DNA from: an uncultured Neomegalonema sp.
Lineage (GTDB): Bacteria; Pseudomonadota; Alphaproteobacteria; Rhodobacterales; Rhodobacteraceae
Assembly (NCBI GenBank): GCA_937990185.1
Contig: CALKBI010000031.1
Coordinates: 1 to 64,000, forward strand
Length of the DNA: 64,000 nucleotides
Direction: 5' to 3'
Shown: piece after piece, positions 58,725-63,895 of the stretch
Numbering within the stretch: the stretch's first letter is position 1
How the letters are laid out: every line of letters begins with the position of its first letter
Made by a program: the position numbers and the translations under genes
The notes under the pieces: model-generated
What the model saw: only the letters and a program-made list of their open reading frames with translations
The model's database searches: none
Told to the model about the DNA's origin: nothing

Positions 58725-60464
58725 TCATATTGGTTCAGAGATTTCCGCTTTTGGAATAGCCAATTCGATATGAAAGCTATCTTCGGTTTGTGTGCGTTTT
58801 ACGGTCCCTCGCAACTGCCGGGCGAAACCATCGATTAATTTTTGGCCGATGCCGCGTCTGGCATTTTCTTGCTTATCCATCTTGATTGCTTCCGGATGTA
58901 CGCTGTTTCGTACGCTTAAGCTGAGACAATCGGAACGATCCTTCATCACGATCTCTAATTTACCATCCTCGACATGGCTGAGCGCGTGCTTGAATGTGTT
59001 CACAATGGCTTCTGTTGCGAACAAAATAAGAGGTACAGCCGTATCGGGAATAACCGTAACAGGATCAAGATCTGTTGAGAGTTTGATCGAGTCCCTCTTC
59101 CGGGCGCTGCCACTCAATAGATTTTCAGCAATCTCGGCAATCATGACATCTATTCGGACTGCATTCGTATTTTCTGATTCATAAATTTTCTGGTGTACGA
59201 GAGCCAAACCTTGGATTCTTTCCTGAAGGCGCTCTAATCCAAGCTTTTCGCGGTCACTGTCAGCATCGCGAATCTGCAAGCTCATCAGACTCGAAATCAT
59301 CTGTAGATTGTTTTTAACCCGGTGATTGACTTCGAGAAGAAGGCCATCTTTTTCCTGAACGGTTTCGACCAAGTCGTGTTCACGTGTTTCGATCACTTCA
59401 ACCATTTCATCGAAGCTGGACCCGAGTTTGGCGATTTCTGTTGGTGCGTTTCGCATACGATGCGCGCGCAACGGTCTTCCGCTCCGTCCATAGGCGGTAA
59501 CCAAACGATCAAGATACAGTATGTGGCGCAGGGCTAGTTGATCGACTGCAAAATATGCAACAGCAACAGCAAGTCCCCACATCAGGATTGGTAAGCTCAC
59601 GGTTAGTAGGTTCAACCATCCGAGTGAAGCGGGTACTATCTCACCGGGCCAACTGGAAATCGCAAAAATGTCCTGTTTAAATAACGGGGCGATAGCGAAT
59701 ACCCTCGTTTGGCCTGATCGTGAGCTCACCTCGACGATCCTATCGGAACTTTTAAAAATTCGCCTCAATTCTGTAGCCGACGGCAACCAGTCAAAATTAG
59801 TAGCTGAGCTGCTTTGCGCAACCCCTGATCCATCTGGGGTGACAATTGCGAAGCGTGCTTCCGGAGCTAGATTTTTTGATCGGGCGACCCATTCCAAGTA
59901 GCGGCTCGAAATTGACATGCTAAGGGCGCCGCGCAGCGTACCATTACGGTATAAAGGGTGGTTGATGACGATTACTTGCTGGCCACTGACTTCACCTTTC
60001 TCGCGCGCTGTGACGGCACGTCGGGGCGATTTTAAGAAGGTTTGCACACCAATTTGATGGCTGAAATCTGTCGGGGGTCTCGGAGGAAATGAACATTCCA
60101 TCATCCCTGCAGAGTCGATGAACCCAATAAAAGGTACTGTTGGTTCTTGCTTGATAAATGCATTGAGGACGTTCCGGCAGGCGCTGACCTCCCCATCCAG
60201 ATCAATAAGCGCATCAAGGGCATTCAGCGCCCCAAAAGCCTCGAGTATCGCGGCCTGTTCGACTTGACTGGCTTGAACAGCTTCAAAGGTGAACGCTTCG
60301 CGGCGTAGCTTCTTTGTTTCGGAGTAATTGGTTATACCCTGGGCTACAGCAAAAACGCCGATTGGGAGCATTGCGACAGCCAATAGGATTGCGACTTGTG
60401 CGCGAAGACTTAGTTTGCGGAGCAAACGCTCTAAAGATGGGAACATGAACTCGGAGCGTCGCAC
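58725..60464 (-). CDS. HisKA_2-type sensor kinase of the general stress response
   Basis: A 579-residue membrane kinase. Helix 1 (VAILLAVAMLPIGVFAVAQG) and helix 2 (LLTVSLPILMWGLAVAVAYFAV) enclose a periplasmic sensor of about 250 residues. The HisKA_2 motif LEVNHRVKNNLQMISSLMSLQ carries the phosphoacceptor His, followed by a HATPase_c_2 domain. Kinases of this kind phosphorylate PhyR. The start GTG 60464 lies 4 bases after the ecfG stop, with GGAAG from the ecfG end as its ribosome binding site; ATG 60446 is the alternative. So nepR-ecfG-kinase is one operon and this is a probable PhyK. Confidence 0.88.
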   Translation of the reverse strand: MRRSEFMFPSLERLLRKLSLRAQVAILLAVAMLPIGVFAVAQGITNYSETKKLRREAFTFEAVQASQVEQAAILEAFGALNALDALIDLDGEVSACRNVLNAFIKQEPTVPFIGFIDSAGMMECSFPPRPPTDFSHQIGVQTFLKSPRRAVTAREKGEVSGQQVIVINHPLYRNGTLRGALSMSISSRYLEWVARSKNLAPEARFAIVTPDGSGVAQSSSATNFDWLPSATELRRIFKSSDRIVEVSSRSGQTRVFAIAPLFKQDIFAISSWPGEIVPASLGWLNLLTVSLPILMWGLAVAVAYFAVDQLALRHILYLDRLVTAYGRSGRPLRAHRMRNAPTEIAKLGSSFDEMVEVIETREHDLVETVQEKDGLLLEVNHRVKNNLQMISSLMSLQIRDADSDREKLGLERLQERIQGLALVHQKIYESENTNAVRIDVMIAEIAENLLSGSARKRDSIKLSTDLDPVTVIPDTAVPLILFATEAIVNTFKHALSHVEDGKLEIVMKDRSDCLSLSVRNSVHPEAIKMDKQENARRGIGQKLIDGFARQLRGTVKRTQTEDSFHIELAIPKAEISEPI

Positions 60465-60468
60465 TGAA

Positions 60469-61017
60469 TTACTTCCGTCCCGCGTCACCGCCTGATCCAA
60501 GGGCAGCCAGCAGTTCGCCCTCAGACCGATCATTGCTGCCGGTGTCATCGTCGAGCAGTTCAACTAAGCGTGCGCGAGCGCGGTTAACGCGGCTTTTTAC
60601 AGTGCCAATGGCGCATCCACAAACGGCTGCGGCTTCTTCGTAAGAAAATCCCGATGCACCCACGAGTGTTAAAGCTTCACGCTGATCTGCTGGCAAAGTG
60701 GCAAAAGCTTCATTGAAGTCGCGCAAATCCAATATGCCGTGCTGCGTTGGCTTGTCTGGAACCTGAGCAGCATAGCGTCCGTCAATATCCTCTACTTCAC
60801 GGCGATGTTTGCGAATTTCAGAATAAAAAGTATTTCGAAGGATCGTAAACAGCCAAGCACGCATGTTTGTCCCCTCCTTAAAGCTACTCAGATTGCTCCA
60901 TCCTTTTAGGATTGTTTCCTGCACGAGATCATCTGCTCGTGTTTGATCATGAACAAGGCTTCTGGCGAACGCGCGTAGGTTATTTGTCTGAGCGATCAGA
61001 TCATCTTCGAGGCTCAT
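60469..61017 (-). CDS. ecfG: ECF sigma factor EcfG
   Basis: A 182-residue ECF15 sigma factor. Region 2 is LRAFARSLVHDQTRADDLVQETI and MRAWLFTILRNTFYSEIRKHRR; region 4 is LPADQREALTLVGASGFSYEEAAAVCGCAIGTVKSRVNRAR. It directs RNA polymerase to general stress promoters (GGAAC-N16/17-cGTT) and is held by NepR. Its ATG overlaps the nepR stop (ATGA). Dependence on its own promoter is inferred from the upstream site. Confidence 0.93.
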   Translation of the reverse strand: MSLEDDLIAQTNNLRAFARSLVHDQTRADDLVQETILKGWSNLSSFKEGTNMRAWLFTILRNTFYSEIRKHRREVEDIDGRYAAQVPDKPTQHGILDLRDFNEAFATLPADQREALTLVGASGFSYEEAAAVCGCAIGTVKSRVNRARARLVELLDDDTGSNDRSEGELLAALGSGGDAGRK

Positions 61018-61193
61018 TTTTTATCGCCATTACGAAGTTGTTCGAGCAACGAGTTCAACTTATCGGGTAATGGCTCATTTGCTACTTCATCGTAAACTTG
61101 TTTTAATGCGCTTGATATTGGGTCGTTTGAACCTACTTCTTGCGGAGACGTTTCATTCTCATCAAAACCGTTTGTTTTGGAATTAGTCGTCAT
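61014..61193 (-). CDS. nepR: Anti-sigma factor NepR
   Basis: A 59-residue protein that binds EcfG and is pulled off by phosphorylated PhyR. The two-helix core is DPISSALKQVYDEVANEPLPDKLNSLL, the NepR signature. The frame is open to an ATG at 61259, but that would place the start upstream of the promoter elements, so ATG 61193 is chosen; it also gives the normal length. Translationally coupled to ecfG. Confidence 0.92.
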   Translation of the reverse strand: MTTNSKTNGFDENETSPQEVGSNDPISSALKQVYDEVANEPLPDKLNSLLEQLRNGDKK

Positions 61194-61224
61194 TCCGGTT
61201 CCCACATTGATTTCATTGCGCAAT

Positions 61225-61250
61225 GGAACCAAACTTCTGTAAGCGGCGTT
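61225..61250 (+). promoter_or_regulatory. EcfG-dependent promoter of phyR
   Basis: GGAAC (61225-61229), 17-base spacer, CGTT (61247-61250): an exact match to the general stress promoter consensus, about 50 bases upstream of the phyR ATG. It is one half of an inverted repeat shared with the nepR promoter. Confidence 0.8.
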
Positions 61251-61257
61251 TGGTTCC
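61232..61257 (-). promoter_or_regulatory. EcfG-dependent promoter of nepR-ecfG
   Basis: Reading the minus strand, GGAAC (61257-61253), 17-base spacer, AGTT (61235-61232). It differs from CGTT only in the least conserved first base and overlaps the phyR promoter on the other strand almost completely. It is 39 bases upstream of the nepR ATG. Confidence 0.7.
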
Positions 61258-61300
61258 ACTACCTTATAAATATTTAAGCGAGTGAGGGTTTTTTAACACG

Positions 61301-62134
61301 ATGGACGAGGACATCAAATCGCCGAACGACACGACTGACATTCACGGCGCTGTCGCAACTCATCTTCCATTTCTTCGCCGCTTCGCGCGGGCATTAACAG
61401 GATCACAGGAAAGCGGTGACTCATATACCGTTGCTACGCTTGAGGCGATAATTGAAGATCGAAGTACGTTTGATACGGCCCTTCCAGCAAAGGTTGCCTT
61501 GTTTCGTTCTTTTCATGCGGTGTGGTCGAGTGCGGGATCTGCCGCTCACTTGTCCTCTGACACCGCTTCTGGGTTAGAAGGAATAGCGCAGCGCAGAATA
61601 GCCGTATTGACCCCACCGTCGCGGGAAGCATTGCTCCTTAATGCGCTGGAAGATTTCTCACTGAATGATATCGCTGCGATTATGAACGTTCCGACGACCG
61701 AGGCGGAAATGTTGCAGACGGCTGCGCTAGCAGAGATTGAAAAGCAGACATCTGCACGTATCTTAATCATCGAAGATGAACCGATCATCGCGATGGATAT
61801 CGAGTCAATTGTCCTCGAATTAGGTCACACGAGTGTTGGCATTGCCGATACTCACGAAATTGCTGTTAAGCTAGCTGACGAGGAACGCCCTGATTTAATC
61901 TTGAGCGATATTCAATTGGCTGATGGATCGTCAGGAATTGATGCTGCGAAAGATATCCTCGAGAAATTCAGCGTCCCGATTATATTTATTACGGCTTTCC
62001 CGGAACGATTATTGACTGGTGAGCGTCCGGAACCGACTTTCTTAATTACGAAACCATTCAAGAGGTCGGCGGTGCAAATTTCCGTCTCACAAGCACTGTT
62101 TTTTGGGAGTACTTCCGCGATACATCTTGAATAG
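61301..62134 (+). CDS. phyR: General stress response regulator PhyR
   Basis: A 277-residue protein. The N-terminal half mimics an ECF sigma factor (LPFLRRFARALTGSQESGDSY; PPSREALLLNALEDFSLNDIAAIM) and the C-terminal half is a receiver: RILIIEDEPIIAMD, the phospho-Asp in LILSDIQLADGSSG, and IIFITAFPERLLTG, the signature of the FATGUY group, then KPF. On phosphorylation the sigma-like domain captures NepR and frees EcfG. It is divergent from nepR. Confidence 0.95.
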   Translation: MDEDIKSPNDTTDIHGAVATHLPFLRRFARALTGSQESGDSYTVATLEAIIEDRSTFDTALPAKVALFRSFHAVWSSAGSAAHLSSDTASGLEGIAQRRIAVLTPPSREALLLNALEDFSLNDIAAIMNVPTTEAEMLQTAALAEIEKQTSARILIIEDEPIIAMDIESIVLELGHTSVGIADTHEIAVKLADEERPDLILSDIQLADGSSGIDAAKDILEKFSVPIIFITAFPERLLTGERPEPTFLITKPFKRSAVQISVSQALFFGSTSAIHLE

Positions 62135-62254: not shown

Positions 62255-63895
62255 CTATTCAGAAAGCGATTTACCCGGTGCAATCGCACTGGATGATGTA
62301 ACGACATGGATCAACGCTGGGCGTCCCGCACTGCGAGAGCGTTCAAAGGCGGCAGGAAACTCCAAGTCGTCAGTGACGATTTCACCATGAAATCCATAAG
62401 CTTCTGCAAGGGGTGCAAAACTTGGGTTCTGTAGCCAAGTACCACTGACCCGTCCGGGATACTCCCGCTCCTGATGCATTCGGATTGTGCCATACATGCC
62501 ATTGTCCGAGACAATCACGATGACGTTCGCACCTTCTTGGGCAGCAGTTCCCATTTCTTGAATTGTCATCTGCAAGCATCCATCTCCGGCGAGGCAAATA
62601 ACTTCCCGGTCTGGATAGCGCAGCTTGGCAGCGATAGCGGCAGGCAGGCCATACCCCATCGACCCGGACGTTGGAGCGACTTGCGTTCCATAACGATGAA
62701 ACCGGTAAAACCGATGCAGCCATCCGGCATAATTTCCTGCCCCGTTTGTCAGGATTGCATCTTGCCGTAATACATCGCGCAAGTGTGTAATAACCGCGCC
62801 CATCGTGGCATCACCAGGGGCTTCCGGTGGTGTCTCGCTCCAAGCGAGATAGCTCTCATGGGCGATTTCGGTTTCGCGTGTCCAACTAAGAATTTCAGGC
62901 GCGTCTATCTCGAGCGCACGGGACAAAAATCCTCCCGGAGTCGCATTAATGGCCAGATTAGGTGCGTAGATGCGGCCCAGTTCCTCTGCGCCGGGATGGA
63001 TATGGATCAGCATCTTATCCGGGTTCGGAATTTTGATGAGATCGAATCCCTGTGCAGGATTTTCAGAGAGACGACCCCCCAATAAAATCAGCAAGTCACT
63101 TTCTTCAATCCGCTGACGTAATTCTGGATTTATGCCTAGCCCAACATCGCCAGCGTAGCAAAAATGATTGTGATCAAACAAATGTTGCCGCCGGAACGAA
63201 CATCCGACAGGCAGCATCCATTTTTCTGCCATGACTCGCAAAGCTCGAACTGTTTCAGGATTCCAACGCGAGCCACCAACAATGACGAAGGGTTTCGCTG
63301 ATTGCGAGAGGAGCGTTTTGAACCATTCCATTTGCGCGGCGCTTGGTGATGGTTCAGAGACTTCAACCCGGCGCGCCGGGTTCACGTTGACTTGCTCGCG
63401 CAGCATATCTTCAGGAAGAACGAGTATCACGGGACCGGGGCGGCCACTCATGGCGACGTGCCATGCACGATTGATGATCTCGGGGATGCGGGCCGGGTCT
63501 TCGATCTGTTCAACCAACTTGGCCATACCGCCGAACATCAGACGATAATCTACTTCTTGAAATGCATCGCGACCTGTCCAGCCGCGGGATATTTGTCCAA
63601 CGAAAAGGATCATCGGTGTTGAGTCTTGCTGAGCGACGTGCACACCCGCCGAGGCATTCGTCGCGCCGGGACCACGGGTGACAAAGCAAACGCCGGGGCG
63701 CCCTGTCAATTTCCCGTCTGCTTCCGCCATCATCGCCGCGCCGCCCTCTTGTCGGGCAACAACAGTTTGAACAGCAGAACCGTGCAGGCCATCGAGTACG
63801 GCTAAATAACTTTCACCGGGGACGCAAAATACACGTTTGACCCCTTGTTCAACGAGACACTCTACCAGCAGTTCGCCACCTGTTTGAGCCGTCAT
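62255..63895 (-). CDS. Thiamine diphosphate-dependent enzyme, acetolactate synthase-like
   Basis: A 546-residue TPP enzyme. VVARQEGGAAMMAEADG holds the catalytic Glu, FVTRGPGATNASAGVH and a central domain follow, and CLAGDGCLQMTIQEMGTA then SDNGMYG is the GDG...N cofactor motif. It resembles the large subunit of acetolactate synthase, but no small subunit is next to it and no FAD-site motif is obvious to me, so other decarboxylases (for example of oxo acids) are possible. Its ATG overlaps the stop of a rhodanese gene (ATGA). Confidence 0.85.
   Translation of the reverse strand: MTAQTGGELLVECLVEQGVKRVFCVPGESYLAVLDGLHGSAVQTVVARQEGGAAMMAEADGKLTGRPGVCFVTRGPGATNASAGVHVAQQDSTPMILFVGQISRGWTGRDAFQEVDYRLMFGGMAKLVEQIEDPARIPEIINRAWHVAMSGRPGPVILVLPEDMLREQVNVNPARRVEVSEPSPSAAQMEWFKTLLSQSAKPFVIVGGSRWNPETVRALRVMAEKWMLPVGCSFRRQHLFDHNHFCYAGDVGLGINPELRQRIEESDLLILLGGRLSENPAQGFDLIKIPNPDKMLIHIHPGAEELGRIYAPNLAINATPGGFLSRALEIDAPEILSWTRETEIAHESYLAWSETPPEAPGDATMGAVITHLRDVLRQDAILTNGAGNYAGWLHRFYRFHRYGTQVAPTSGSMGYGLPAAIAAKLRYPDREVICLAGDGCLQMTIQEMGTAAQEGANVIVIVSDNGMYGTIRMHQEREYPGRVSGTWLQNPSFAPLAEAYGFHGEIVTDDLEFPAAFERSRSAGRPALIHVVTSSSAIAPGKSLSE

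Follow-up and report, generated by a model that had tools for sequence, protein, structure and literature searches.

A mirror pair of EcfG-type motifs between phyR and nepR-ecfG, a probable bidirectional promoter of the Rhodobacteraceae

The window, a stretch of 64,000 nucleotides from an uncultured Neomegalonema sp. (Rhodobacteraceae), contains the divergent genes phyR and nepR-ecfG, with the gene for a PhyK-like histidine kinase behind ecfG (Table 1). The identities proposed for phyR, nepR, and ecfG from the sequence alone were borne out by profile matches over cut-off. The nepR start at 61193 is a chosen one, as the longest frame opens with a GTG at 61259. For the kinase, the best NCBIfam match was NF051872 (PhyK), which was below its cut-off. 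Neither a sigma70-like promoter nor a terminator was found in 61150–61320. On the other side of phyR, a gene for a thiamine-diphosphate enzyme (62255–63895) adjoins it in convergent orientation; on plasmid pDSHI02 of D. shibae, a gene annotated as the large subunit of acetolactate synthase is also located near phyR. The genome to which the window belongs encodes a further ECF-like sigma factor (L311; G000 contig C41, 72425–72583, minus strand) with a match to PF22029 (PhyR_sigma2) over cut-off.

Table 1 Genes and promoter motifs at the phyR locus of the window
Feature	Position	Strand	Basis
phyR, response regulator with sigma-like domain (anti-anti-sigma factor)	61301–62134	+	NF006623, PF22029, PF22233, and PF00072 over cut-off
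nepR, anti-sigma factor	61014–61193	-	PF18557 over cut-off; NF051865 below cut-off
ecfG, ECF sigma factor	60469–61017	-	NF009199, PF04542, and PF08281 over cut-off
PhyK-like HisKA_2/HWE histidine kinase	58725–60449	-	PF07568 over cut-off
Mirror element	61225–61257	.	10-bp inverted repeat and 13-bp centre
phyR-ward promoter, -35 GGAAC	61225–61229	+	Motif
phyR-ward promoter, -10 CGTT	61247–61250	+	Motif, spacing 17 (N17)
nepR-ecfG-ward promoter, -35 GGAAC	61253–61257	-	Motif
nepR-ecfG-ward promoter, -10 AGTT	61232–61235	-	Motif, one letter off CGTT, spacing 17 (N17)

Between nepR-ecfG on the minus strand and phyR on the plus strand lies an element that we call the mirror element. The 10-base inverted repeat described here by the sequence-only reading was confirmed as perfect: the arms GGAACCAAAC (61225–61234) and GTTTGGTTCC (61248–61257) match throughout and enclose a centre of 13 bp (N13). 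Each arm consists of GGAAC, two bases, and AAC; these last three letters belong to the four-letter -10 of the opposite promoter. The motifs that had been assigned to it, GGAAC-N17-CGTT towards phyR and GGAAC-N17-AGTT towards nepR-ecfG, were also found as EcfG-type motifs on both strands. Compared with the EcfG (ECF15) promoter, the -35 was exactly GGAAC on both strands, the spacing was 17 both ways against the required 16 or 17, and the -10 was CGTT on the plus strand but a 3/4 match, AGTT, on the minus strand. A spacing of N16 has been described for the EcfG promoters of R. etli and S. granuli, and the -10 of stress promoters in Sphingopyxis has been described as flexible, with up to 14 putative boxes (PMC7083833). 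The same reading had the -35 of each promoter overlapping the -10 of the other, which was wrong: 2 bp separate them on each side (61230–61231 and 61251–61252), so that the elements interleave, and the two -10 elements are distinct. Each arm contributes a -35 to one promoter and, 2 bp further in, a -10 to its partner, which gives both promoters a common centre.

The frequency of the pattern and of its parts was investigated in the window and in whole genomes. The palindrome pattern, with up to three mismatches, occurred once in the window and in none of 100 window shuffles, and a relaxed mirror pattern was detected at a single place in the window's genome. The single motif was unremarkable: the window contained three copies of GGAAC-N16..18-CGTT against 1.82 expected, and 24 of 100 shuffles reached three. 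Exact EcfG motifs showed no excess in the window's genome, with 26 (N17) and 30 (N16) matches where the reversed pattern had 66 and 60; 27 of the 30 N16 matches (by a crude rule) and 18 of the 25 N17 matches away from the mirror locus were inside an ORF. An EcfG regulon based on exact motifs in this genome was dropped because there was no excess over the reversed pattern and most matches were within ORFs. Two N17 matches precede frames that we take to encode an OmpA-like lipoprotein and a type I secretion ABC protein. When 150 genomes of the family were searched with the pattern, 93 were positive among the matches listed, and the reversed control also gave one-strand matches. Two-strand matches occupied at least 43 places among the matches listed (counted by eye), and all 43 were at phyR, 42 directly upstream by position and one by translation. 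The last of these, on contig C113 of genome G162, is flanked by a NepR frame and, on its opposite side, by the start of PhyR.

To survey the element across phyR loci, 183 loci were scanned over a region reaching from 400 bases upstream of the beginning of the PhyR match to 30 bases into it, using a strict rule for mirror pairs (both -35 exact, -10 at least 3/4, spacing 16 or 17, offset 4–10). Left out of these were PhyR matches that are partial or split (in G044, G035, G471, and G162), as well as G034 and G415 and the second copies G009:C17 and G011:C4; the upstream part of G162 was scanned separately as L296, and G418, with 31 bases upstream, was classed as short. Among the 142 loci of the family, which includes Dinoroseobacter, 106 had a mirror pair, 15 a minus-strand site only, 11 both sites without a mirror, 5 a plus-strand site only, and 5 neither. 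The offsets of the 106 mirrors were 6 bp (26), 7 bp (74), and 8 bp (6); the only other offset with more than two family pairs was +2, with six. Conservation of the arms is partly due to construction, because a pair passes the strict rule only if each strand has GGAAC. Less affected by this is the proportion of loci with a nepR-ward site that also have a phyR-ward partner at 6–8 bp, which was 106/132 in the family and 3/24 in other families. A degenerate pair with a looser score of at least 15 was present at five family loci without a mirror (L015, L017, L028, L186, and L227), the best of 300 shuffles being 14. Of 245 good-quality genomes of the family, one per genus, 116 had a clear PhyR (E value of 1e-40 or lower); thus, about half are without one.

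The 41 loci of other families comprised 3 with a mirror, 16 with both sites but no mirror, 9 with a plus-strand and 5 with a minus-strand site only, 7 with none, and 1 that was too short. In 7 of those 16, the two sites were back-to-back and 31–34 bp apart, and the phyR loci of S. meliloti and M. bullatum also had two sites apart. The only strict mirrors outside the family (L162, L251, and L252) were from one genus of family f42; they had 17/17 spacing, an offset of 6, CATT as the plus-strand -10, and centres containing a G-run and a C-run, and their independent origin is possible.

The sequence-only reading had proposed looking for the same palindrome in related genomes, and it was present there, both in the 106 family loci and at 9 of 10 phyR loci on named Rhodobacterales plasmids (10 of 15 records were scanned; two of the nine loci are from strains of one species). 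The named carriers include Dinoroseobacter shibae, Gemmobacter, Ketogulonicigenium, and Roseobacter ponti; at the tenth of these plasmid loci, that of Roseobacter litoralis, the mirror pair was absent. Among 80 loci from titled records, strict mirrors were found in four of six Neomegalonema loci and in Pseudooceanicola endophyticus. The remaining 73, nearly all sphingomonads by title, included one without upstream DNA (L097), and none of the other 72 had a strict mirror. A looser scan of the titled loci (-35 at least 4/5) flagged 22 mirrors; 17 did not pass under the strict rule, including 13 at shift 3. Sphingomonad loci mostly had the nepR-ward site only. The PhyR sequences in records titled Arthrobacter sp. 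TPD3018 (L042) and Microvirga sp. SRT01 (L069) showed 61% and 56% identity, respectively, to that of the window and fell among the sphingomonad matches; these record titles may be wrong.

Within the window's genus, the mirror was present at 6 of 14 primary phyR loci, the other 8 having no strict phyR-ward site, and at none of five second phyR copies; family loci outside the genus had it in 100 of 123 cases. Four of the second copies (L261–L264, from G007, G002, G012, and G001) have EcfG-type sites back-to-back at offsets of -32 to -35, which is the layout of other Alphaproteobacteria and not the mirror. A PhyR tree of 82 rows was constructed from full phyR only, with a midpoint root for drawing only; L121 was left out because its PhyR match starts ahead of the start codon. 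The family rows grouped together (support 98/97), with the mirror in 43 of 55, and the nepR-ecfG-ward site was kept in 11 of the 12 family rows lacking it. Rows of the window's genus without the mirror formed a supported clade of seven, plus one further row. The family grouping and the 43 mirrors within it suggested that the mirror is probably ancestral to the family, and its decay probably removes the phyR-ward half. Five loci of the genus clade lacking the phyR-ward site (L008, L010, L012, L014, and L016) have the short dyad GGTTCCAT-N5-ATGGACC, or something near it, after the nepR-ward -35.

Here, we propose that the palindrome is a bidirectional EcfG promoter whose two orientations are mutually exclusive, a reading to which we assign a probability of roughly 0.7. 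EcfG-RNA polymerase would bind the 33-bp site in either orientation, one of which would fire phyR and the other nepR-ecfG. Stress-response-dependent promoters are known to drive both units in the class (PMC8103513), and in the window's organism both directions are presumably used. Because the opposite -35 lies only 2 bp beyond each -10, in the stretch that is melted and started in, two polymerases should not fit; one polymerase would exclude the other, and competition for one site would follow from the geometry. The proposal draws on the narrow range of offsets and the broad occurrence of the pair among family loci. Several observations count against it: the minus-strand -10, AGTT, is off consensus, a strict phyR-ward site is missing from 8 of 14 primary loci of the genus, Roseobacter litoralis has no mirror pair, the exact motif shows no excess in the window's genome, and E. 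coli bidirectional promoters do not compete at basal activity. A role as an RNA hairpin was rejected, because both predicted starts are downstream of the palindrome, which these promoters should therefore not transcribe.

The proposed mode of action resembles that of the sigma70 bidirectional promoters of E. coli and Salmonella (PMC12825309, PMC10268837), in which DNA is symmetric, polymerase binds either way, and divergent RNAs arise from a short site. In E. coli, binding in one orientation has been reported to prevent binding in the other (PMC12825309). The starts of sigma70 bidirectional promoters are described as flanking or falling within a common -10, commonly 18, 10, or 23 bp apart, whereas the mirror element would be used by an ECF sigma factor, has two -10s and two -35s with predicted starts roughly 33–37 bp apart, and is conserved at one divergent gene pair across the family. 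By its sequence, the mirror element has the symmetric DNA with two polymerase orientations described in PMC12825309, but its starts would not flank, or fall inside, one common -10; with two distinct -10s, it may work like a bidirectional promoter but is not classed as a member in that sense.

The strongest alternative, which we regard as a serious one at somewhat below even odds, is that the two promoters are genuine and in use but interleaved by descent or for compactness, and that neither fires often enough for competition to make a difference. In PMC12825309, the five E. coli bidirectional promoters examined were all reported as too weak at basal activity for competition, which appeared once activity, or that of one direction, was raised; furthermore, the window's genus tolerates the loss of one half. 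However, the 6–8 bp geometry is kept across the family while the centre varies, other families hold two sites apart between the same genes, and autoregulated stress promoters should reach high activity.

It is also conceivable, but improbable, that only the nepR-ecfG-ward promoter matters and that the phyR-ward half is a fading relic, phyR being transcribed from elsewhere. The minus-strand site is indeed the one kept in the non-mirror tree rows of the family, and the plus half is the one lost in the genus. Nevertheless, the plus-strand site agrees in 9 of 9 letters in the window and its nearest relative, and the absence of a sigma70-like promoter nearby argues against transcription of phyR from elsewhere. 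Across the 106 mirrors, the -10 was CGTT in 77 on the plus strand compared with 69 on the minus strand (52 on both; 50.1 expected if independent), which also counts against a relic phyR-ward half.

Much less probable again is that the palindrome is the operator of a dimeric DNA-binding regulator and its likeness to EcfG promoters accidental. The dyad is perfect in the window, and among the 106 mirrors the linkers showed weak symmetry at the level of single bases (P 0.032) and paired centre positions matched in 174 of 531 cases, somewhat above the expected 27.5%. Yet the conserved letters are those of the EcfG -35 and -10, in other families these motifs occur separately, and the half-site distance varies with the promoter spacing of 16 or 17, with spacings of 16/16 in 53 mirrors, 17/17 in 25, and mixed in 28, and centres of 10 nt (50), 11 nt (55), or 12 nt (1). 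The linkers range from 1 to 3 nt, and whole two-base linkers were identical in 23 of 66 cases against 20.7 expected (P 0.25), so that their symmetry was not significant. While the arms are kept, the centre sequence is variable except beside the -10s, where C and G predominate. Thus, apart from the weak symmetry of single bases, neither a fixed half-site spacing nor symmetry beyond the promoter letters, as in a palindromic operator, was found in the 106 mirrors, and spacing and linker variation make the operator unlikely. T-rich tracts were present 12–17 nt outside both -35s, and two promoters with a common centre, each possibly preceded by an upstream A/T element, would fit better than a dimer operator. 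Finally, spontaneous origin of mirror pairs from the partial self-symmetry of EcfG motifs holds at offset +2, where the sites share bases (six family pairs and three others), but is refuted at offsets 6–8, where no base is shared and strict pairs arose in 2 of 42,600 dinucleotide shuffles of the 142 family regions (0 of 20,000 for the window's own region) against 106 of 142 real loci.

What is already known comprises the stress-dependent transcription of both units and bidirectional promoters of the sigma70 type. Other Alphaproteobacteria share with the mirror locus the divergent phyR and nepR-ecfG and the same motif on both strands, but their EcfG sites are not interleaved. R. sphaeroides has the gene order of the window (RSP_1274 and RSP_1273-RSP_1272; PMC5830050) and was compared at the level of gene order and mRNA. 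The dRNA-seq data described in that study suggest that RSP_1273-1272 share a promoter upstream of RSP_1273. Under membrane stress, ecfG mRNA was reported to increase but not phyR mRNA, and under singlet oxygen, superoxide, and diamide, phyR mRNA increased two- to threefold (PMC5830050). As described there, the phyR and ecfG mRNAs were not induced together, which we counted against the bidirectional reading. No report of an ECF mirror form at the phyR locus was found in the open-access titles, abstracts, and passages searched.

If the mirror element is a bidirectional promoter, one site with two competing orientations would hold the ratio of PhyR to NepR-EcfG initiation at the ratio of the two affinities. 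Because both orientations compete for one site, this ratio should be constant at every level of active EcfG, although we are much less sure of this step; with separate promoters, it would drift towards 1:1 on saturation. A two-state occupancy calculation gave the same picture: the output ratio stayed constant when one site was shared and drifted to 1:1 when the sites were separate. The earlier idea that competition sets the ratio is therefore best restated as locking rather than tuning. On this model, the general stress response of the family would pass through one switch of ECF polymerase orientation, which would fix PhyR versus NepR-EcfG by the affinities of the arms at every induction level. 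Transcription bursts of phyR and nepR-ecfG would be anti-correlated, and locking of the partner-switch stoichiometry would be the reason why the shared site has been kept in preference to a pair of autoregulated promoters standing apart. We consider this extension speculative and, taken as a whole, rather doubtful.

The finding bears on the question of selection for competition at bidirectional promoters in bacteria. The mirror element would provide an alternative-sigma case in which two full promoters are kept in a fixed geometry across a large family, at a locus where the output ratio of anti-sigma to anti-anti-sigma factor should decide the response, and the same genes with their promoters apart in other Alphaproteobacteria would serve as a natural control.
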